NCBI RefSeq assembly: GCF_007954505.1
Contig: NZ_CP042412.1
Coordinates: 2,852,001 to 2,916,000 of the forward strand
Direction of reading: 5' to 3'
Source of the DNA: Microbacterium sp. CBA3102
GTDB taxonomy: Bacteria; Actinomycetota; Actinomycetes; Actinomycetales; Microbacteriaceae
Length of the DNA: 64,000 nt
A program made the translations under genes and the position numbers. Position 1 is the first letter of the stretch. The number at the start of each line of letters is the position of its first letter. The notes beneath the pieces are model-generated. The model saw only the letters and a program-made list of their open reading frames with translations, was not told where the DNA came from and did no database searches. Below, in pieces: positions 10,290 through 24,266 of this stretch.

Positions 10290-11984
10290 ATGACGACCTC
10301 TACGATCGATCGGCAAGCGGTCGATGATCTCGTGCATCCCTCGATGCCTTCTGGCGGCGCGGTTGCCGTCACCTACCTGCGCGTCTCGACCAAGGAACAG
10401 GCCGAGAAGGGCGGCACTGACGAGGGGTACTCGATCCCCGCGCAGCGGCAAGCCAATCGTCGCAAGGCTGAGCAACTCGGTGCAACCGTGATCGAAGAGT
10501 TCGTCGACGCCGGTGAGTCGGCGCGTAAAGCCGACCGGCCGGAGCTGATGCGGATGATCAAGTACGTCGCCGAGCATCAGGTGAACTACTGCATCGTGCA
10601 CAAGGTCGACCGCCTCGCACGCAACCGAGCCGACGACGTCACCATCCACCTCGCGCTCCGTGATGCCGGGGTGATGCTGGTGTCGGCGAGTGAGAACATT
10701 GATGAGACCCCGTCGGGGATGCTGCTGCACGGCATCATGTCGTCGATCGCGGAGTTCTACTCTCGCAACCTCGCCACCGAAACCGTGAAGGGCCTCTCGC
10801 AGAAGGCTGCGCAGGGCGGCACCCCGAACCGTGCCCCGATCGGGTACACGAACGTGGGCATCCGTGACGAGCGGGGGCGAGAGATCCGCACGGTTGTCGT
10901 CGATACGGAACGGGCTGACCTCGTGACGTGGGCGTTCCAGGTGTACGCGTCGGGGCAGTGGACGACGACGCAGTTGCATCGCGAACTCGTCGCGCGGGGA
11001 CTGACGAGTCCGCCGACGCCGAAGCGGCCGTCGAAACCGATCGCGTTGTCGACGATGCATCGCATTCTGACGAACCCGTACTACAAGGGCGACGTGCGCT
11101 ACGGAGGTGCCACGTACCAGGGAACGCACACCCCGATTGTGGCGAAAGAGGTCTGGTATCAGGTGCAGACGGTGCTGGATGCGCACAAGTCCGCAGCCGA
11201 CGCGACCCAGGTGCACGACCACTATTTGAAGGGGACGGTGTATTGCGGGCAGTGCGGTGAGCGGCTCATCATCACGAACGCGCGCAACCGGCACGGCAAG
11301 GTCTATCCGTACTTCGTCTGCTCGGGCAGACACTCCGGCAAGAATGCCTGCACGAGGCAGGCCATGCTGATCGAGGATGTCGAGCATCTCATTGAGCGTT
11401 ACTACGAGACGATCCAAGTCACTGGCGAGATGCGGCAGAGCCTTGCGGGCATGCTGCATGCCGAGTTCGACCAGCTCATGGCGTCCGAATCGAAGGAACT
11501 CAATCGGCTTGCGACCGAGAGGGATCGCTTGGAAGACGAACGAGTGAAGGTGTTGCAGGCGCACTATGCGGGGGCGGTGCCGCTCGATCTGTTGAAGATC
11601 GAGCAGGATCGCATCAGCGCGAGCCTGGAGAACATCGAGAACCGGATCGCCGCGCACCACGAGGAGTATGCGTCGGCGCGCGCGAACGTCGACGACTCGC
11701 TGGGGCTGCTCGCGAACGTGGCTGGCATCTACCAGCGTTGCGATGACGCGAACCGCAGGCTCTGCAACCAGGCGTTCTTCACGAGGATCTTCATCGATGA
11801 GGATCGTGAGACTCGGGTTGAGTACGAGCGGCCGTTCGGGTCGCTGTGCAACGCAGAGGAGCAGGCGAACGCGCTGAACTGGGCAGCCGCGGCGTGCTCT
11901 GGGAAAAAGAAAAGTGGTGAGGTTCAGACCTTCGCGAGAGTGGAGACTCTCGTCGAGGGTTTGAACCTCACCACATCAGGGTGA
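10290..11984 (+). CDS. Large serine recombinase (ICE integrase)
   Basis: This 564-residue serine integrase would insert and excise the element. An N-terminal resolvase domain has catalytic Ser33 (YLRVSTKEQ) and the VHKVDRLARNRAD stretch. The recombinase domain follows (about residues 180-290). A zinc ribbon starts near residue 317 (CGQCGERL with two later cysteines). A coiled coil lies at about 395-455 (SKELNRLATERDRLEDE). The last codons run through a hairpin that looks like the tRNA-His terminator, and the TGA at 11982-11984 lies inside the tRNA 3' end. The C-terminal tail of about 25 residues may therefore be encoded by chromosomal sequence captured on integration. Confidence 0.93.
   Translation: MTTSTIDRQAVDDLVHPSMPSGGAVAVTYLRVSTKEQAEKGGTDEGYSIPAQRQANRRKAEQLGATVIEEFVDAGESARKADRPELMRMIKYVAEHQVNYCIVHKVDRLARNRADDVTIHLALRDAGVMLVSASENIDETPSGMLLHGIMSSIAEFYSRNLATETVKGLSQKAAQGGTPNRAPIGYTNVGIRDERGREIRTVVVDTERADLVTWAFQVYASGQWTTTQLHRELVARGLTSPPTPKRPSKPIALSTMHRILTNPYYKGDVRYGGATYQGTHTPIVAKEVWYQVQTVLDAHKSAADATQVHDHYLKGTVYCGQCGERLIITNARNRHGKVYPYFVCSGRHSGKNACTRQAMLIEDVEHLIERYYETIQVTGEMRQSLAGMLHAEFDQLMASESKELNRLATERDRLEDERVKVLQAHYAGAVPLDLLKIEQDRISASLENIENRIAAHHEEYASARANVDDSLGLLANVAGIYQRCDDANRRLCNQAFFTRIFIDEDRETRVEYERPFGSLCNAEEQANALNWAAAACSGKKKSGEVQTFARVETLVEGLNLTTSG
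11901..11974 (-). terminator. Hairpin with T-run: terminator of tRNA-His, inside the integrase 3' end
   Basis: The arms at 11914-11930 and 11958-11974 form a 17-bp stem with one mismatch. An inner hairpin (CGAGAGT 11935-11941 with ACTCTCG 11946-11952) sits in the loop. Read on the minus strand, the stem is followed by TTTTCTTTTT (complement of 11904-11913), a classical rho-independent terminator. It begins 5 bases after the tRNA-His 3' end, the same spacing as the hairpin behind tRNA-Leu at 52342. It also lies within the last coding bases of the integrase. Confidence 0.8.
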
Positions 11985-12053
11985 GTAACGGGACTCGAAC
12001 CCGCGACATCCGGCACCACAAGCCAGCGCTCTACCAGCTGAGCTATACCCACC
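11980..12053 (-). tRNA. tRNA-His (GTG)
   Basis: This is a complete cloverleaf on the minus strand. The acceptor stem is GTGGGTA/TACTCAC, preceded by the extra 5' G (position -1) opposite the discriminator C that marks tRNA-His. The anticodon loop TTGTGGT carries anticodon GTG, and the T-loop is TTCGAGT. The 3' CCA is not encoded. Candidate -10 boxes TATGGT (12080-12075) and TAGACT (12088-12083) lie upstream. The serine integrase ends within its first bases on the 3' side, so this is the likely ICE attachment locus. Confidence 0.95.
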
Positions 12054-16743: not shown

Positions 16744-17634
16744 TCAGGAGGCGTCTTCAGGGACGCGAATCATGATCTCCTGCGCGACGCTCGCCGCAAG
16801 AGAACCATCGCGTGTGTAGATCCGTCCGGTGGCGAGCCCGCGGCCACCGCGGGCGTTCGGGGACTCCTGGACATACAGCAGCCACTCATCCACACGGGCG
16901 GGACGGTGCCACCACATCGCGTGGTCCAGGCTCGCGACCTTCAACCCGGGCAACGCCCAGTACACGCCGTGTGCGCGGAGGATCGACTCCTGGATCGTCA
17001 TGTCGCTGAGGTAGGCGAGCGCGGCACGGTGCAGGCGCTGATCGTCGGGGAGTGGTGCACGCAGACGCATCCACACCTCCTGGCGCGCGACACGCTGGTC
17101 ATCACTCGGCAGATACAGGGGAGAGTCGACGTGCCGGATGTCGGCAGCGCGTTCGCTCAACATGCGCGTGGTGCCCTCGGGAAGGCCGTGAACGCGCTCC
17201 TCGTCCGGCGTGAGCTCCTCCGGGGAAGGGATGCCCTCCGGCATCGGCTGGGCGTGCTCCACACCGGGATCACCGTCTTGGAACGACGCGATCATCGAGA
17301 AGATCGGCACACCGTTCTGATAGGCCTGCGCCCTCCGGGTCGAGAAGGAACGGCCGTCGTGGATCCGATCGACGGCGATCGTGATTCCCTGACTCGCGTC
17401 GCCGGGGCGCAGGAAATAGCCGTGCATCGAGTGCACAGCCCGGTCTTCGGGAAGTGTGCGTTCGGCGGCGAGGAGCGCTTGCGCGAGGACTTGACCGCCG
17501 TAGATGCGTCCGCTCGGCATGGGATGCGACGAACCCGTGAAGATGTCCTCCGTGGTCCGTGCCTGCGTCGCATCGAGATCGAGGATCTCACGCAGCCGCT
17601 CGACGGTCCGGACGGCATGGTCCTCCGCGCTCAT
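16744..17634 (-). CDS. tesB: Acyl-CoA thioesterase II (TesB)
   Basis: This 296-residue double-hotdog thioesterase hydrolyses medium- and long-chain acyl-CoA. The N-terminal hotdog has GRIYGGQVLAQALLAAERT and SMHGYFLRPGD. The C-terminal hotdog has YLSDMTIQES (Asp of the catalytic set), SLDHAMWWHRP and QESPNARGGRGL (Gln/Ser). Length matches the family. GGAAGG lies before the ATG, and a TAAACT box (17680-17675) overlaps the -10 of the divergent gene. It ends opposite the 4HBT thioesterase, so two thioesterases meet tail to tail. Confidence 0.95.
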   Translation of the reverse strand: MSAEDHAVRTVERLREILDLDATQARTTEDIFTGSSHPMPSGRIYGGQVLAQALLAAERTLPEDRAVHSMHGYFLRPGDASQGITIAVDRIHDGRSFSTRRAQAYQNGVPIFSMIASFQDGDPGVEHAQPMPEGIPSPEELTPDEERVHGLPEGTTRMLSERAADIRHVDSPLYLPSDDQRVARQEVWMRLRAPLPDDQRLHRAALAYLSDMTIQESILRAHGVYWALPGLKVASLDHAMWWHRPARVDEWLLYVQESPNARGGRGLATGRIYTRDGSLAASVAQEIMIRVPEDAS

Positions 17635-17685: not shown

Positions 17686-18351
17686 GTGCCGCATCACCTC
17701 CTCCTCGCCGACCCGGACACCGCGAAGGATGTCCTCACTTTCGTCGGTCGAGCGACCCGGATCACGGACGACGGGGTGCGGCTGCAGGCAGCGAACGGCG
17801 TCCTCGCTCTGACCACCGCGGCGCTGGCGCCGCACGGTCTCTTCGACCAGACTCCGACGATCCTCGCCATGCGTATCGTGCATGCTGACCCTGAACTCCG
17901 CTGCGATGTCGTCGTGGATCAGCTCACCACGACGGACGAGCAGGCCCAGCTCGCGTTCCCGGACACGGGACTATCGCCCGCGTGGGCCGGCGTCGCACCG
18001 CCCCGCTCCGGATGGGAGCAGGCCTCCGCGCTCCCGGCCTCGACGATTGCGCAGCGCGCGCAGTGGGGGATCTCCGCGGTGGCTCGGGGCGCGGGTGCAG
18101 GATCGGGCGAGGAAGCCGTCCGGGCGCTTCGCGCAGCGATCTGGGGGGAACCGGATGAGGAGCTGGGCGGACTGCCGCGTGGCATCGCCTTCGCCGCCGA
18201 CGCCATGGGTTTCATCTCCGGGGACGAACAGGTGCCCGTCACCCGGTCCGGTCGGTGGACCCGGCTGTCCTTCCGCCGCGGTCATGTCCTGGTGCGAGGG
18301 CCGATCGCCTCCGGACTCACGGGCGTCCGCGACACGGGCTCCGCAGGCTGA
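17686..18351 (+). CDS. Conserved-looking hypothetical protein
   Basis: This 221-residue soluble protein is of unknown family. The GTG start (MPHHLLLADPDTAKDVLTFV) is placed 7 bases after the TAGTTT box, a leaderless arrangement. It is rich in Ala/Gly/Asp, with no membrane helix. Stretches such as VRALRAAIWGEPDEELGGLPRG and GIAFAADAMGFISGDEQVPV might be useful for searching. Hydrophobic beta-like segments suggest a compact alpha/beta fold. It converges with the FAD-dehydrogenase operon. Confidence 0.75.
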   Translation: MPHHLLLADPDTAKDVLTFVGRATRITDDGVRLQAANGVLALTTAALAPHGLFDQTPTILAMRIVHADPELRCDVVVDQLTTTDEQAQLAFPDTGLSPAWAGVAPPRSGWEQASALPASTIAQRAQWGISAVARGAGAGSGEEAVRALRAAIWGEPDEELGGLPRGIAFAADAMGFISGDEQVPVTRSGRWTRLSFRRGHVLVRGPIASGLTGVRDTGSAG

Positions 18352-18386: not shown

Positions 18387-20051
18387 TCAGCTCCCGGCTG
18401 CGGCCGCACGTCCGGCTGCACGACCGCTGAAGAGACAGCCGCCCAGGAACGTGCCTTCGAGTGCACGATAGCCATGGACCCCGCCTCCGCCGAAGCCACT
18501 CGCCTCGCCTGCGGCGAACAACCCGGGGATCGGTGCGCCCTGAGCGTTCAATGCGCGACCGTCGAGATCGGTGTTGATGCCGCCGAGCGACTTCCGCGTG
18601 AGGACGTGCAGCTTCACCGCGATGAGCGGGCCGGCGCTGCGCTCTTGCAGTCGATGAGGTGCGGCGGTGCGGATGAGCTTGTCGCCGCGATAGTTCCGCA
18701 TGGACCGCAGCATCGCGATCTGCGCGTCCTTGGTGAAGTCGTTCTCCACCTCACGATCCCGGGCGACCACCTCCGTGCGCACGGCGTCGATGTCGAGCAG
18801 CTCTCCGCCGGGATGGCGCTGCATCTGCTCCAGGAGTGATTCGAGATCGTTCTCGACGATGAAGTCCTCGCCCTCGTCGAGGAACGACTGCACGGGACCT
18901 GACGGACCCTTCGCGAGCCGTGAACGGAGCAGCAGCCCGACATCCTTGCCTGTCAGGTCGGGGTTCTGCTCGCTCCCGGACAGCGCGAACTCCTTCTCGA
19001 CGATCTGCCGCGACGTGACGAACCAGGAGTGGTCGTGCCCTGTCGAGCGCAGATGCTCGAGGGTGCCCAAGGTGTCGAAACCCGGGTACAGCGGAACCGG
19101 CAGACGTCGTCCGGTGGCATCCAACCAGAGCGACGAGGGCCCCGGGAGGATGCGGATGCCGTGAGAGGGCCACACCGGGTCCCAGTTCGTGATGCCTTCG
19201 ACGTAGTGCCACATCCGGTCACCGTTGATCAGCCGCGCGCCCGCCGCTTCGCTCACGCCGTGCATCGATCCATCGACGTAGGCCGGCACGCCGGAGAGCA
19301 TGTGCGCGGGCGGCGCGCCGAGCCTCGACGGCCACGCGGCGCGGACGAGGTCGTGGTTGCCACCGATGCCGCCCGAGGAGACGATCGTGGCACCCGCTGA
19401 GATCTCGAACTCCCTGATGACCTCGCGGGTGGTCGGCTCACCCCGCTCCGCACCGCTCGATGCGAGGATGCTGCCGCGCGCACCCGTCACCGTGCCGTCC
19501 GTCACGATCAGTTCCGACACGCGGTGTCGAGGAAGCACGGTCAGGCGCCCCTCACGTTCGCCCTGCTCCACGGCAGCGGCGAACGGTGCCACGATTCCGG
19601 GTCCGGTTCCCCACGTGATGTGGAACCGTGGCACGGAGTTGCCCGGGCCGATCGCGCCGTATCCGCCCCGTTCCGCCCACCCCACGACCGGGAAGAAGCC
19701 GACGCCGCGTTCACGCAGCCAGGAGCGCTTCTCACCGGCCGCGAACTGCAGGTATGCCTCGGCCCAGCGCCGTGGCCATTCATCCTCCGGGCGGTCGAAG
19801 GCCGCATTGCCGAACCAGTCCTGCGTCGCGAGCTCGAGCGAGTCCTTGATACCGAGACGCCTCTGCTCGGGGGAGTCGATGAAGAACAGGCCGCCGAAAG
19901 ACCACCAGGCCTGACCGCCCAGATTGGTGCGCGGCTCCTGATCGATCAGGATGACACGCCGCCCCGCATCCAGCGCCTCTGCGGCGGCGACGAGGCCGGA
20001 CAACCCCCATCCGATCACCAGGACATCCGTGGACAGGGGCGTTGTCGTCAT
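18387..20051 (-). CDS. FAD-dependent dehydrogenase of the fumarate reductase/3-ketosteroid dehydrogenase type
   Basis: This 554-residue flavoprotein has the N-terminal Rossmann motif [21 protein letters not shown] (written here as GWGLSG, about residues 14-19) and an Asp/Glu ending the second strand (LIDQEP). The C-terminal FAD loop is [18 protein letters not shown]. The family moves hydrogens between an organic substrate and a carrier; the substrate is unknown. Its ATG overlaps the globin stop by 4 bp (20048-20051), making it the last gene of the mscS-globin-dehydrogenase operon. No Tat or Sec signal is seen, so it should be cytoplasmic. Confidence 0.85.
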
Positions 20052-20497
20052 GAGTTCTCCGTTGATTCCTGACGTGAGCGGGTCTCGAGCGTGGGACGGT
20101 CGCCAGCTGCGGCGCCGATGCCCGACGGCTCGAATGTGTTCACCATGGCATAGGCGGCGCGCTCCAGGTAGTCCCACAGCGTCGATTCGTGCAGGGGGGA
20201 CAACTGCGCCTCGTCGACGGCGGTCCTCATATGACGAAGCCAACGATCCCGGGCGTCCGGGTCGATGTGGAACGGCATGTGGCGCATCCGGAGCCGGGGA
20301 TGCCCGCGGGTCTCCCCATAGGTCGTCGGTCCGCCCCAGTACTGCTCGAGGAAGAGGCGGAGCCGATCCTCTGCGGGCCCCAGATCCTCCTCGGGGTACA
20401 TCGGCTTCAGCACGGGATCGAGTGCGACCTCGCGGTAGAACACGGAGACGATCCTGCGGAAGGTCTCGTGACCGCCGACCTCGTCGTAGAACGTCAC
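20048..20497 (-). CDS. Truncated haemoglobin (group II, GlbO-like)
   Basis: This 149-residue 2-on-2 globin begins at a GTG that overlaps the mscS stop by 4 bp (GTGA). It has [19 protein letters not shown] at the B helix and [15 protein letters not shown] at the CD/E region. [20 protein letters not shown] contains the likely proximal His, and RDRWLRHM has the Trp at G8 typical of group II. It binds haem and oxygen and may supply or sense O2 or NO near the flavoenzyme encoded just downstream. The C-terminal 25 residues are a polar extension. Length is normal for GlbO (about 130) plus this tail. Confidence 0.9.
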
Positions 20498-21567
20498 TTC
20501 GGGGTACTCCCGTCGTCGGTGGGCTTCTTGCGCCGCCAGATCCCGCGATCGGGGATGACGGGAACGCCGGTGACGGCGTTCGGGCGCGTCTTGGGCGGAT
20601 TCGCGCCTCGCACCCGGCGTGCGCCGTCGAGGCCGGTGGGGACGACGTCGGCCATCCGCGGGACGCTGATCTCCTTCTCGAGGAGGGCCGCGCGCAGGCG
20701 GCGGCGCAGTTCTTGCGCCACATCGTCCTTCGCATTGGCTCGGGCCTTGATCACGATGCGGACGACGAGCGCGTCGCCGTCGATGGATTCGAGGCCCCAG
20801 AGCTCCGGCTTCTCGATGATGCGGGTGCGCCACTTCGGGTCTTTCGCGAGCCCCTGTGCCGTCTCCAACATGGTGTGTTCGACCAGGTCGAGGTCGGAGT
20901 CTGCAGGAACACCGATGTCGATGATCGATCGCGCCCAGCCCTGAGACATGTTCCCGATGCGGGTGACCTCTCCGTTTCGCACGTACCAGAGGGTGCCGTT
21001 GACGTCGCGCACTTGGGTGATGCGCACGCTGACGTACTCCACGACCCCGCTCGCCAGGCCGAGGTCGACCACGTCACCGATGCCGATCTGGTCTTCGGCC
21101 ACGATGAACATGCCGTTGAGCACGTCTTTCACGATGTTCTGGGCGCCGAAGCCCAATCCGGCACCGACGGCGGCCGTGAGGAGCGTCAGGGAGCCGAGGA
21201 GCGACGAGTTCAGTGCATTGACGATGAGCACGATCGCGATGACGACCAGCATCACGTTGACGATGTTCTGCAGGATCGTGCCGAGTGTCCTGGTGCGCTG
21301 CACCAGCCGCATGTCTGCGAGCGGCGAGCGCTCGAGTGCTTGCGTGTCGTCGACCGAGGCCTTGTTCTTGGCGCTGTCGACGATGCGACGCACGACCCGT
21401 CGGATGATGAGACGGAGCACCAGGCCGATCACGATGCAGCTGCCGATGATGAGTGCGACGGTGAGCGCGTTCTTGCCGACCTGCGTCAGCCAGGCGAGCA
21501 ACGCTTCCACTCCATCGGGGAGGGGCGTCTCCGCGGGTGAGTCGGTGTCGGCGAAGGGGAGGATCAT
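20494..21567 (-). CDS. Mechanosensitive channel of the MscS family
   Basis: This 357-residue inner-membrane channel has a first membrane helix near residues 34-54 ([20 protein letters not shown]), a second near 100-120 and a third pore-lining helix rich in Gly/Ala ([20 protein letters not shown]). The beta domain ([20 protein letters not shown]) and a C-terminal alpha/beta domain follow. The basic tail is 50 residues long. It releases solutes on hypo-osmotic shock. It is the first gene of an overlapping operon with a globin and a flavoprotein. A TAGGAT box (21581-21576) ends 8 bases before the ATG, so it is leaderless. Confidence 0.93.
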
Positions 21568-21623: not shown

Positions 21624-21698
21624 AAACGGAGACCATCCGTCCCCCTGTCGCCGTGTCGGTGAGGGACACGCCGAGTGCAGGACGGATGGTCTCCGTTT
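21624..21698. terminator. Long nested hairpin between pepN and mscS
   Basis: AAACGGAGACCATCCGTCC at 21624-21642 is perfectly complementary to 21680-21698 (19 bp). A second hairpin (CGTGTC 21652-21657 with GACACG 21665-21670) sits inside the loop. Read on the minus strand it begins 15 bases after the pepN stop and its base is followed by TTTTCGTCT, so it probably terminates pepN transcription. It lies upstream of the mscS promoter. Confidence 0.75.
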
Positions 21699-21713: not shown

Positions 21714-24266
21714 TCAGTCCTCGGCGTCGCGCGCCTGCGCGGCCAGCGCGCGCTCCACATCCGCCAGGTTCTCGAGCACGAGTCGGCGGAGCGCCGGCGC
21801 CGCGTCCTGGTGGGCGGACAGCCAGGCGCGGGTCGCGTCGCGTAGCGCGATATCGGCCAGCGCCGTCGGGAAGAGTCCGACGATCAGGTACTGCGCGATC
21901 TGATAGCTGCGCGACTCCCACACCGGAAGCAGCATGTCGAAGTACGCGGGGACGAACTCGGCGAGCACCGCCGTACCTGCCGGATGCGTGAACCCGAGCG
22001 CCGCAGAGCGGACGATCGTGTTCGGAGCGTCGTCACGCTCGATCAGCGATGCCCACGCCGCCTTCTTGGACGCCGAGTCGGGAAGGGAAGCGCGTGCCTG
22101 CGCGGCGAACTCTCCGCCCTTGGCCGTGTTGTCCGAAGCGAGGGCGGCATCGATCGTCGCGGCATCCGTGGCACCGATCGTGGCGAGGCCGACGAGGAGC
22201 TGCCAGTTCAGGTCGGCGTCGACCTCCAATCCGGGCAGGGTGTCCTCTCCGGATCGCAGTCGTCCGACGATGCCTGCGTGCTCCGGGGTGACCAGGGCGT
22301 TCGCGAACGCGGTGACGAACTGCAGCTGACTGTCGCTGCCGGGCTCCGCTGCCTCTGCGAGGCTCCACAGGCCGTCGGCGACCTTGAGGCGGGCAGCCTC
22401 GCGATCAGCGGGCGCGACGTACAGCGTCGCGGCGGAGCGGAGCTGAGCGAGCGTGGTGCGCACGGTGGTCGACTCGGTCTCGCGGCCGATGTTGCCGAGC
22501 ACGAGGTCGATGTACTCCGATGCACCGGTCTCGGCGTCGCGGGTCTGGTCCCAGGCGGCACCCCACACGAGCGAACGTGCGAGGGGGTCGTGGATGTCCG
22601 CCAGGTGCGCGATCGCCGTCGCGAGCGACTTCTCGTCGAGACGGATCTTCGCGTAAGCGAGGTCGTTGTCGTTCAGGAGGACGAGGTCCGGTCGGGCGAG
22701 GCCGTGCAACTCGGGCACTTCGGTGCGGTCCCCGTCGACATCGACCTCGAGGTGATGCGTGCGGGTGAGCGAGCCGTCGGTCAGCGTGTAGAAGCCGATA
22801 CCGAGGCGGTGAGGACGGATCGTCGGGTAGTCCGCGGGCGCGGTCTGGGTGATGGCGAAGCGCGAGATCGTGCCGTCGTCACCCTCGGCGATGACCGGCT
22901 CGAGCGTGTTGACGCCGGCGGTCTCGAGCCACTTCTTCGACCACGTGCTCAGGTCGCGGCCGCTCGTGGCTTCGAGCTCCGATAGCAGGTCGCTCAGCTC
23001 GGTGTTGCCCCAGGAGTGCTTCTGGAAGTACTGGGATACCCCGGCAAAGAAGGCCTCGATGCCCACCCAGGCGGCGAGCTGCTTGAGGACGGAGCCGCCC
23101 TTGGCGTAGGTGATGCCGTCGAAGTTGACCTGCACGTCTTCCAGGTCGTTGATCTCGGCGACGATCGGGTGCGTCGAAGGAAGCTGGTCCTGGCGGTACG
23201 CCCAGGTCTTCTCCATGGCGTTGAATGTCGTCCATGCCTCGGTCCACTCGGTGGCCTCGGCCGTCGCGATGGTCGAGGCCCATTCGGCGAAGGACTCGTT
23301 GAGCCAGAGGTCGTTCCACCACTTCATGGTGACGAGGTCCCCGAACCACATGTGCGCGAGTTCGTGGAGGATCGTGACGACCCGGCGCTCCTTGACGGCG
23401 TCGGTCACCTTGCTGCGGAACACGTAGGTCTCGGTGAACGTGACCGCTCCCGCGTTCTCCATCGCGCCGGCGTTGAACTCCGGCACGAACAGCTGGTCGT
23501 ACTTGGCGAACGGGTACGGGACGCCGAACTTCGATTCGAAGTAGGCGAAGCCCTCGCGGGTCTTGTCGAAGATGTAGTCGGCGTCGAGATGCTGCCACAG
23601 GCTCTTGCGGCCGTACACGCCCAGCGGGATGACGCGGCCGGACGCACTCGTGAGCTCCGAGAAGGTCGACTCGTACGGCCCGGCGACGAGGGCGGTGATG
23701 TAGGACGAGATCCGGGGGGTCGGCTCGAAGCCCCAGGTCGCGGTGACGTCGTCGTCGTGCACGATGGCTTCCGGCGTGGGGGAGTTGGAGATGACCTTCC
23801 ACGCCGCCGGAGCGGTGACGGTGAACTGGAAGGTCGCCTTGAGGTCGGGCTGCTCGAAGACCGCGAACACACGACGTGAATCGGGGACCTCGAACTGCGA
23901 GTAGAGGTAGACCTCGCCGTCGACGGGATCGACGAAGCGGTGCAGACCCTCCCCGGTGTTCGTGTAGAGGCAATCGGCATCGACCACGAGGACGTTCTCC
24001 GCCTGGAGCCCCGTGAGCGTGATGCGGGAGTCGGCGAAGACCTCGCTCGGGTCGAGCTGCTCGCCGTTGAGGGAGATCTCGCGCACATCCCGGGCGATGA
24101 GATCGATGAAGGTGAAGCTCTCGGGCGTCGCGGTGAAGCGCACGACACTGCGAGAGCCGAAGACCTCGGCGCCCTTTGTCAGATCGAGGGCGACTTCATA
24201 GGACTGCGTGTCGATGACGTCGCGGCGCTCCTGCGCTTCGATACGGGTGAGGTTCTCTCCAGGCAC
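21714..24266 (-). CDS. pepN: Aminopeptidase N (M1 family)
   Basis: This 850-residue zinc metallopeptidase removes N-terminal residues from peptides in the cytoplasm. Substrate motif GAMEN is at 267-271, zinc motif HELAH at 301-305 and the third ligand Glu324 in WLNESFAEW. The ERAP1-like C-terminal domain is present, and the length is as in other actinobacterial PepN. The GTG start has GGGAG 8 bases upstream. It stands alone, with a long hairpin behind it. Confidence 0.97.
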   Translation of the reverse strand: MPGENLTRIEAQERRDVIDTQSYEVALDLTKGAEVFGSRSVVRFTATPESFTFIDLIARDVREISLNGEQLDPSEVFADSRITLTGLQAENVLVVDADCLYTNTGEGLHRFVDPVDGEVYLYSQFEVPDSRRVFAVFEQPDLKATFQFTVTAPAAWKVISNSPTPEAIVHDDDVTATWGFEPTPRISSYITALVAGPYESTFSELTSASGRVIPLGVYGRKSLWQHLDADYIFDKTREGFAYFESKFGVPYPFAKYDQLFVPEFNAGAMENAGAVTFTETYVFRSKVTDAVKERRVVTILHELAHMWFGDLVTMKWWNDLWLNESFAEWASTIATAEATEWTEAWTTFNAMEKTWAYRQDQLPSTHPIVAEINDLEDVQVNFDGITYAKGGSVLKQLAAWVGIEAFFAGVSQYFQKHSWGNTELSDLLSELEATSGRDLSTWSKKWLETAGVNTLEPVIAEGDDGTISRFAITQTAPADYPTIRPHRLGIGFYTLTDGSLTRTHHLEVDVDGDRTEVPELHGLARPDLVLLNDNDLAYAKIRLDEKSLATAIAHLADIHDPLARSLVWGAAWDQTRDAETGASEYIDLVLGNIGRETESTTVRTTLAQLRSAATLYVAPADREAARLKVADGLWSLAEAAEPGSDSQLQFVTAFANALVTPEHAGIVGRLRSGEDTLPGLEVDADLNWQLLVGLATIGATDAATIDAALASDNTAKGGEFAAQARASLPDSASKKAAWASLIERDDAPNTIVRSAALGFTHPAGTAVLAEFVPAYFDMLLPVWESRSYQIAQYLIVGLFPTALADIALRDATRAWLSAHQDAAPALRRLVLENLADVERALAAQARDAED

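Follow-up and report, generated by a model that had tools for sequence, protein, structure and literature searches.

Group II truncated haemoglobins of the trHbO type, the kind of globin considered here, have been assigned to a catalase-peroxidase functional type (PMC4720485), and in Bacillus subtilis the protein YjbI clears protein hydroperoxides, for which tyrosines of its own may supply the electrons (PMC9536834). Given this assignment and the example of YjbI, a dedicated globin reductase is not required. An operon of a globin and a ferredoxin reductase is known from Legionella, and the globin reductases named in the same source are FNR-like (PMC3820574). As for channels, E. coli MscS has cytoplasmic partners, for example FtsZ (PMC4440785). 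What group II truncated globins do in Actinobacteria is a matter of debate, and few of their partners have been identified; an MscS gene beside one of them offers a concrete lead. We describe such a locus in a 64,000-nucleotide stretch of Microbacterium sp. CBA3102 (contig NZ_CP042412.1, positions 2,852,001 to 2,916,000, forward strand), the whole of which is called the window. Three of its genes overlap:

20494..21567, minus strand: MscS-type mechanosensitive channel gene (mscS), 357 amino acids, ATG start; first in the unit
20048..20497, minus strand: group II truncated haemoglobin gene, assigned by sequence to the trHbO type, 149 amino acids, GTG start overlapping the stop codon of mscS
18387..20051, minus strand: FAD-binding dehydrogenase gene (NF009472/PRK12834), 554 amino acids; lineage-specific third gene
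20494..20497, minus strand: stop/start overlap of mscS and globin gene, 4 bp, GTGA, read from sequence
20048..20051, minus strand: stop/start overlap of globin and FAD enzyme genes, 4 bp, ATGA, read from sequence

An earlier reading of these letters, made without database searches and called here the sequence-only reading, had proposed these three genes with their overlaps, and its coordinates and family assignments are borne out by Pfam, NCBIfam and the sequence itself. A GGAG core lies 5' of both internal starts, that of the globin and that of the FAD enzyme. The reading had gone on to treat the three genes as one operon and one system. Of that proposal, the adjacency of channel and globin is conserved. 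Membership of the FAD enzyme is not supported: the full set is kept in 38 of 120 genomes of the family Microbacteriaceae, and the enzyme adjoins the globin in none of 84 loci of the order outside that family.

The conserved part of the locus is the pair of channel and globin. The family sample of 120 genomes, drawn evenly and spanning 78 genera, contained the globin in 119, the MscS channel in 117 and the FAD enzyme in 68. Wherever channel and globin occurred together (117/117), they shared contig and strand and MscS immediately preceded the globin, with a hit-to-hit gap of at most 581 nt. These cases include 16 of the 16 genomes with both genes in a hand-picked list of 17 small ones. For the family counts the best match per genome was kept. 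This left out additional globin rows that were weak or split, additional MscS rows in G366 and G422, the further FAD enzyme copy of G320, PepN paralogues lying far off and additional TesB rows. One globin row is a 61-residue fragment (G315, E 1.2e-5), and G384 and G416 have incomplete FAD enzyme rows.

Two flanking genes served as controls, and are given here together with the inverted repeat that is discussed below:

21714..24266, minus strand: pepN, aminopeptidase N (TIGR02412), upstream neighbour
16744..17634, minus strand: tesB-like gene (acyl-CoA thioesterase II-like), downstream neighbour
21624..21698, no strand assigned: inverted repeat in the gap between pepN and mscS, 34-nt arms, 85% complementary; probable pepN terminator

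The tesB-like gene has a Pfam Acyl_CoA_thio match and reaches 258.4 bits against TIGR00189, below that family's cut-off of 292.85. PepN lay within 600 nt of MscS in 72 of 117 family genomes, and TesB within 600 nt of the globin in 0 of 115, the latter being the weaker control, with another gene lying between.

The pairing extends through the order, for which 119 genomes were sampled, 92 with the globin and 27 without. In 77 of the 92 globin loci, the fetched stretch has MscS upstream of the globin and on its strand; in 54 of them, spread over 12 of 17 families, it lies within 600 nt. The corresponding count for PepN and MscS was 22/55, as against 54/77 for MscS and globin; the 55 are those of the 92 loci whose fetched stretch has PepN and MscS on a single strand. 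Adjacency in the order was taken from hit-to-hit gaps; MscS ends obtained by walking to the stop codon overran in several loci and gave large negative gaps. By presence alone, MscS occurred in 82/92 genomes with the globin versus 10/27 without it (Fisher 1.6e-7, kinship ignored). Within the order, MscS and globin form a conserved pair, strong but not obligate. The coupling to a channel, which the sequence-only reading had called odd, thus turned out to be the part that is kept. Its remark that no such system had been described holds for the channel-globin pair, of which we found no description in the open-access literature searched (a passage of PMC4255298, for one, gives no globin-channel link), but the three-gene system of which it was said is unsupported.

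Three further sets were used: 80 named loci, 13 loci of the class outside the order, and 35 loci of the phylum. The exact 4-bp overlap of MscS and globin occurred in 11 of the 80 named loci (L031-L039, L044 and L046), a subgroup of Microbacterium, and the gap was +8 to +17 nt in most of the remaining Microbacterium loci. Named relatives of the globin reach 92% identity. The window's own genome has a single globin match, and a single MscS match at E values up to 1e-12.

The inverted repeat listed above lies upstream of mscS. A 15-nt core of this hairpin is found in the genome only as its two arms, and a repeated hairpin family was rejected on that count. Among the named loci, 31 of 80 passed the filter for a hairpin comparison (PepN before MscS, 20-320 nt between them). 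A perfect inverted repeat in the gap had arms of at least 8 nt in 27/31 relatives (4.19 in shuffles) and of at least 10 nt in 25/31 (0.32 in shuffles); its position is kept and the sequences differ. Since hairpins stand between pepN and mscS, we marked mscS-globin as a unit of its own, and the hairpin is probably the pepN terminator, which would leave mscS and the globin gene on a separate transcript. A simple promoter and terminator scan gave no sigma-70-like site, and three terminator-like sites against 2.1 in shuffles.

The globin matches Pfam Bac_globin (PF01152) with E 2.7e-34 and 118.4 bits, the cut-off being 21. Because its best solved relatives are the T. fusca globin 2bmm (E 3.1e-52), 4uzv and M. 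tuberculosis HbO 1ngk (E 3.3e-42), we assign it to group II, trHbO type, as the sequence-only reading had done for the group. Alignment with 2bmm places Y21, Y34, H73 and W86 in the haem pocket, H73 being the proximal histidine F8. Y21 corresponds to Tyr B10, Y34 to Tyr CD1 and W86 to Trp G8, labels that are also used in PMC4720485. The four residues are kept in 80/80 named, 13/13 class and 35/35 phylum loci. Across the 92 order loci both tyrosines are present in 92, and the histidine and tryptophan in 91, the exception being a 52-residue fragment at a contig end. By analogy with its relatives, the protein would act as a peroxidase or an O2-binding protein.

The channel is assigned by Pfam MS_channel_2nd (PF00924; E 5.5e-12, 46.1 bits, gathering threshold 20.2) and by the C-terminal domain MS_channel_3rd (PF21082; E 4.3e-05, 24.3 bits, threshold 21), and its solved relatives include 3t9n (E 7e-29) and 3udc (E 8.3e-29). 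It is predicted to be an ordinary valve of the MscS type, with tension gating attributed by family membership. In eight small-genome members of the family (one of them a contig-end fragment), and likewise in six genomes of another family of the order (f6), the MscS match ends near residue 210, so that the cytoplasmic C-terminal domain is missing; examples are G319, G352, G365, G414 and G425 from the window's family and L126, L127 and L131 from f6. A motif, G-A/S-x-x-V-x-G-A-x-P-P-x-T, is present in the tail of most aligned Microbacteriaceae MscS proteins (about 20494-20650, minus strand, in the window); the alignment did not show it in any further family.

These channel data bear on the idea that the globin docks on MscS, with the state of the haem tuning gating or inactivation. 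The invariant neighbour relation within the family, the overlap-coupled translation expected in the window's lineage and the cytoplasmic partners of E. coli MscS all speak for such a complex. Nevertheless, the shortened channels of both groups still adjoin the globin, so any MscS-globin interface cannot need the C-terminal domain, and the tail motif is likewise confined to Microbacteriaceae among the families aligned. We consider a physical complex unlikely. What would be left of it is a haem-tuned mechanosensitive channel in which the globin, synthesised next to the channel at the membrane, binds the membrane or beta-domain side of MscS, so that O2, NO or peroxide, by ligating or oxidising the haem, shifts gating, or the channel holds the globin where oxidants enter; the FAD enzyme would have no part in it. 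This reading has a small chance of being right. Were it true, the MscS family would gain a haem-linked member, of which no earlier example is known to us or came up in the open-access literature searched.

We propose instead, as the likeliest of the readings, that mscS and globin form a co-expressed envelope-stress pair, made of a tension valve and a trHbO-type peroxidase or O2-binding globin, and put the probability of this at roughly 45%. Under this proposal, mscS and the globin gene would be transcribed apart from pepN, behind the terminator hairpin, and would be translationally coupled in the window's lineage. MscS would let solutes out as turgor rises. The globin, with its haem pocket lined by tyrosine and tryptophan, would work as a peroxidase or bind O2, and its electrons would come from aromatic residues of the globin itself or from general donors of the cell. 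Co-expression would then supply valve and haem scavenger in fixed proportion under envelope stress, for example upon re-wetting and oxidative burst. As for the FAD dehydrogenase, which in Microbacteriaceae came to stand behind the globin, it would be a passenger with its own substrate and not the globin's reductase. A joint role in osmotic and respiratory stress, which the sequence-only reading had suggested, is possible.

Several facts weigh against the envelope-stress pair. Beyond the order hardly a case of the pairing is left, MscS standing upstream in 1/13 class and 1/35 phylum loci. Within the order, a same-strand MscS upstream is missing from the fetched stretch in 15 of 92 globin loci (some fetched loci stop at contig ends), and in 23 more MscS lies beyond 600 nt. 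The globin occurs without this MscS in 10 of 92 order genomes, among them a genome of the same genus (G069, which also lacks the FAD enzyme), and in two genomes of the family (G334 and G339). Conversely, MscS occurs without the globin in 10 of the 27 globin-less genomes. Eight of the 80 named loci lack a same-strand MscS, five of these (L072, L076, L084, L088 and L090) having an opposite-strand MscS match. Finally, the whole block is old, its other neighbours also staying near, and the FAD enzyme shows a co-occurrence with the globin in the order that is taken up below. As a separate observation, two Cellulomonas-like loci have genes of the phosphotransferase system (PTS) between MscS and globin: EIIA and PtsI in L133 and an EIIA-like start in L074.

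The age of the block leads to the main rival, namely that the adjacency is mere gene-order inertia. According to this, mscS and globin stand side by side solely since an old actinobacterial block (nei-rpiB-pepN-mscS-globin-tesB-4HBT-ettA) was never taken apart, and they share no function except perhaps a promoter. Read along the minus strand, the window has an Fpg/Nei-type glycosylase gene, rpiB and hemH before pepN, then mscS, globin and FAD enzyme; beyond the last come an opposite-strand gene (17686-18351), tesB, a 4HBT thioesterase gene and ettA. The surroundings of M. tuberculosis glbO are probably similar. These neighbours recur over the order. In the 13 class-level loci outside it, 4HBT and EttA matches lie near the globin in 13/13 and PepN in 5/13, and in most of these loci 4HBT and EttA stand downstream of a globin that has no such MscS. 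The cases just given of one gene without the other, ten in each direction among 119 order genomes, also speak for inertia. Against it, MscS and globin hold together more tightly than PepN and MscS do, both in the family (117/117 versus 72/117) and in the order, and the hairpin separates pepN, not the globin, from mscS. Inertia is in our judgement quite possible, and it is the explanation with which the envelope-stress pair chiefly has to compete.

The third gene had been read, together with the globin, as an O2- or NO-linked redox pair in which the FAD dehydrogenase reduces the globin haem. The enzyme matches NCBIfam NF009472, 'FAD-binding dehydrogenase', with 914.5 bits (cut-off 476) and Pfam FAD_binding_2 with E 6.1e-79 as a single domain. 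A Pfam scan to E 0.001 returned only FAD_binding_2 and Rossmann-type matches and no FNR-type domain, and a weak NAD_binding_8 match (E 0.0004) spans just the FAD Rossmann motif at residues 12-48. The AlphaFold model (pLDDT 84.9) matches urocanate reductase, flavocytochrome c3 and ketosteroid dehydrogenases in Foldseek and VIA searches, and on this model the fold is of the fumarate-reductase/ketosteroid-dehydrogenase type. Urocanate reductase was hit as 6t85 (Foldseek E 1.5e-29) and 6t86 (VIA Z 37.3, rmsd 2.5, 444 residues aligned), flavocytochrome c3 fumarate reductase as 1qo8 (Z 39.0, rmsd 3.8, 441 aligned), and 3-ketosteroid delta1-dehydrogenase as 4c3x (Z 33.1, rmsd 3.4, 459 aligned, about 20% identity); the profile match to 3-ketosteroid dehydrogenase is short, 467-518 only. 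The enzyme has no haem c domain and scores 84.4 bits against NCBIfam flavo_cyto_c, whose cut-off is 285.45. The places of His504, His505 and Arg544 of 1q9i, which are catalytic there, read Arg486, Lys487 and Ala530, and R486 and K487 are invariant in 38 rows. Because the active-site histidine pair and arginine are replaced in this way, we rejected a typical fumarate or urocanate reductase. A guess from the fold would be a cyclic or alpha,beta-unsaturated carbonyl compound as substrate.

Its distribution speaks to the same question. Of the 68 carriers in the family, 38 have the FAD enzyme as the gene immediately after the globin, 17 have it farther downstream but less than 10 kb away and 13 at other places, and 51 of 119 family globins are in genomes without it. 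In the order, 52 of 119 genomes carry it, and it adjoins the globin in seven loci, all of the window's family. The sequence-only reading had named scattered genes in relatives as grounds for refuting it, and for the FAD enzyme this is what the survey shows: in 45 of 45 carriers of other families it does not adjoin the globin. In 20 of these 45 whose contexts were read, no neighbour recurs in more than five loci. The gene caller behind these contexts was crude, merging globin and FAD enzyme in the window and missing the FAD gene in 1/20 contexts, and was used only for gaps and contexts. In a phylum-wide draw, 8/28 genomes with the FAD enzyme had no match to this globin. In the tree of the enzyme, a single supported fork takes in all 19 rows that adjoin a globin, plus one outsider (L252), with two label changes, and a single gain behind the globin is likely from this topology. 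By these sequence comparisons, the FAD enzyme is a lineage add-on local to the window's family and not a fixed partner of the globin, a role we rejected.

A redox pair nevertheless has points in its favour: the 4-bp overlap in the window, the position directly behind the globin in over half of the family's carriers, and the precedent in Legionella. In the order, moreover, the FAD enzyme is restricted to globin-bearing genomes (52/92 versus 0/27; Fisher 1.3e-8, with neither kinship nor genome size corrected for), and this may point to a genuine connection. Set against these are the single FAD_binding_2 domain with no FNR-type partner domain, the adjacency missing in the 45 carriers of other families, the genomes that hold one protein without the other, and the haem-pocket residues, which are equally conserved where the FAD enzyme is absent. 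Altogether we regard reduction of the globin by this enzyme as very improbable, and the survey clears away what was a tempting reading of it as the globin's reductase.

The remaining observations concern the surroundings of the unit. The opposite-strand gene at 17686-18351 (plus strand) encodes a 221-residue protein with no Pfam or NCBIfam match and retains its place, with globin on one side and TesB on the other, in families f1, f6 and f7. Its model (pLDDT 83.3, built from eight sequences) resembles DNA sliding clamps: all 50 Foldseek matches listed are clamps (best E 1.4e-5, query TM 0.40-0.51), and the best VIA match has Z 9.8 and rmsd 5.4 over 174 aligned residues. By sequence the protein gave no match to clamps. 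A stand-alone clamp-like protein is possible from the model, though weakly supported. Beside the block, a large serine recombinase gene (10290-11984, plus strand) ends in contact with a tRNA gene (11980-12052, minus strand), possibly marking an integrated mobile element. A scan of viral contigs gave 11 stretches with the pattern and no relative among them, and we rejected the idea that the globin block came from a phage or virus.

How, then, does the locus compare with known systems? First, the globin aligns with 2bmm and 1ngk over the whole globin fold (residues 1-121 or 2-121), with the pocket tyrosines, histidine and tryptophan at matching places, and differs in a C-terminal tail of about 27 residues and in sitting behind an MscS gene. 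YjbI (1ux8), a group II globin with protein-hydroperoxide peroxidase-like activity, is of the same family (E 9e-22), and haem-side tyrosines are implicated in it (PMC9536834); it is a more distant relative, for which a surface or biofilm location is reported. Second, the channel is like the MscS structures 3t9n, 3udc and E. coli 2oau in its pore helix and beta domain (residues 88-304 of the protein), and departs from them in its globin gene partner, in the proline-rich cytoplasmic tail of Microbacteriaceae MscS and in the missing C-terminal domain of some relatives. Third, the Legionella operon of glbN and a ferredoxin reductase gene likewise sets a truncated globin beside a flavoprotein gene (PMC3820574); its partner, however, is a reductase of the FNR type, whereas that in the window is a FAD_binding_2 enzyme whose place beside the globin is not conserved.

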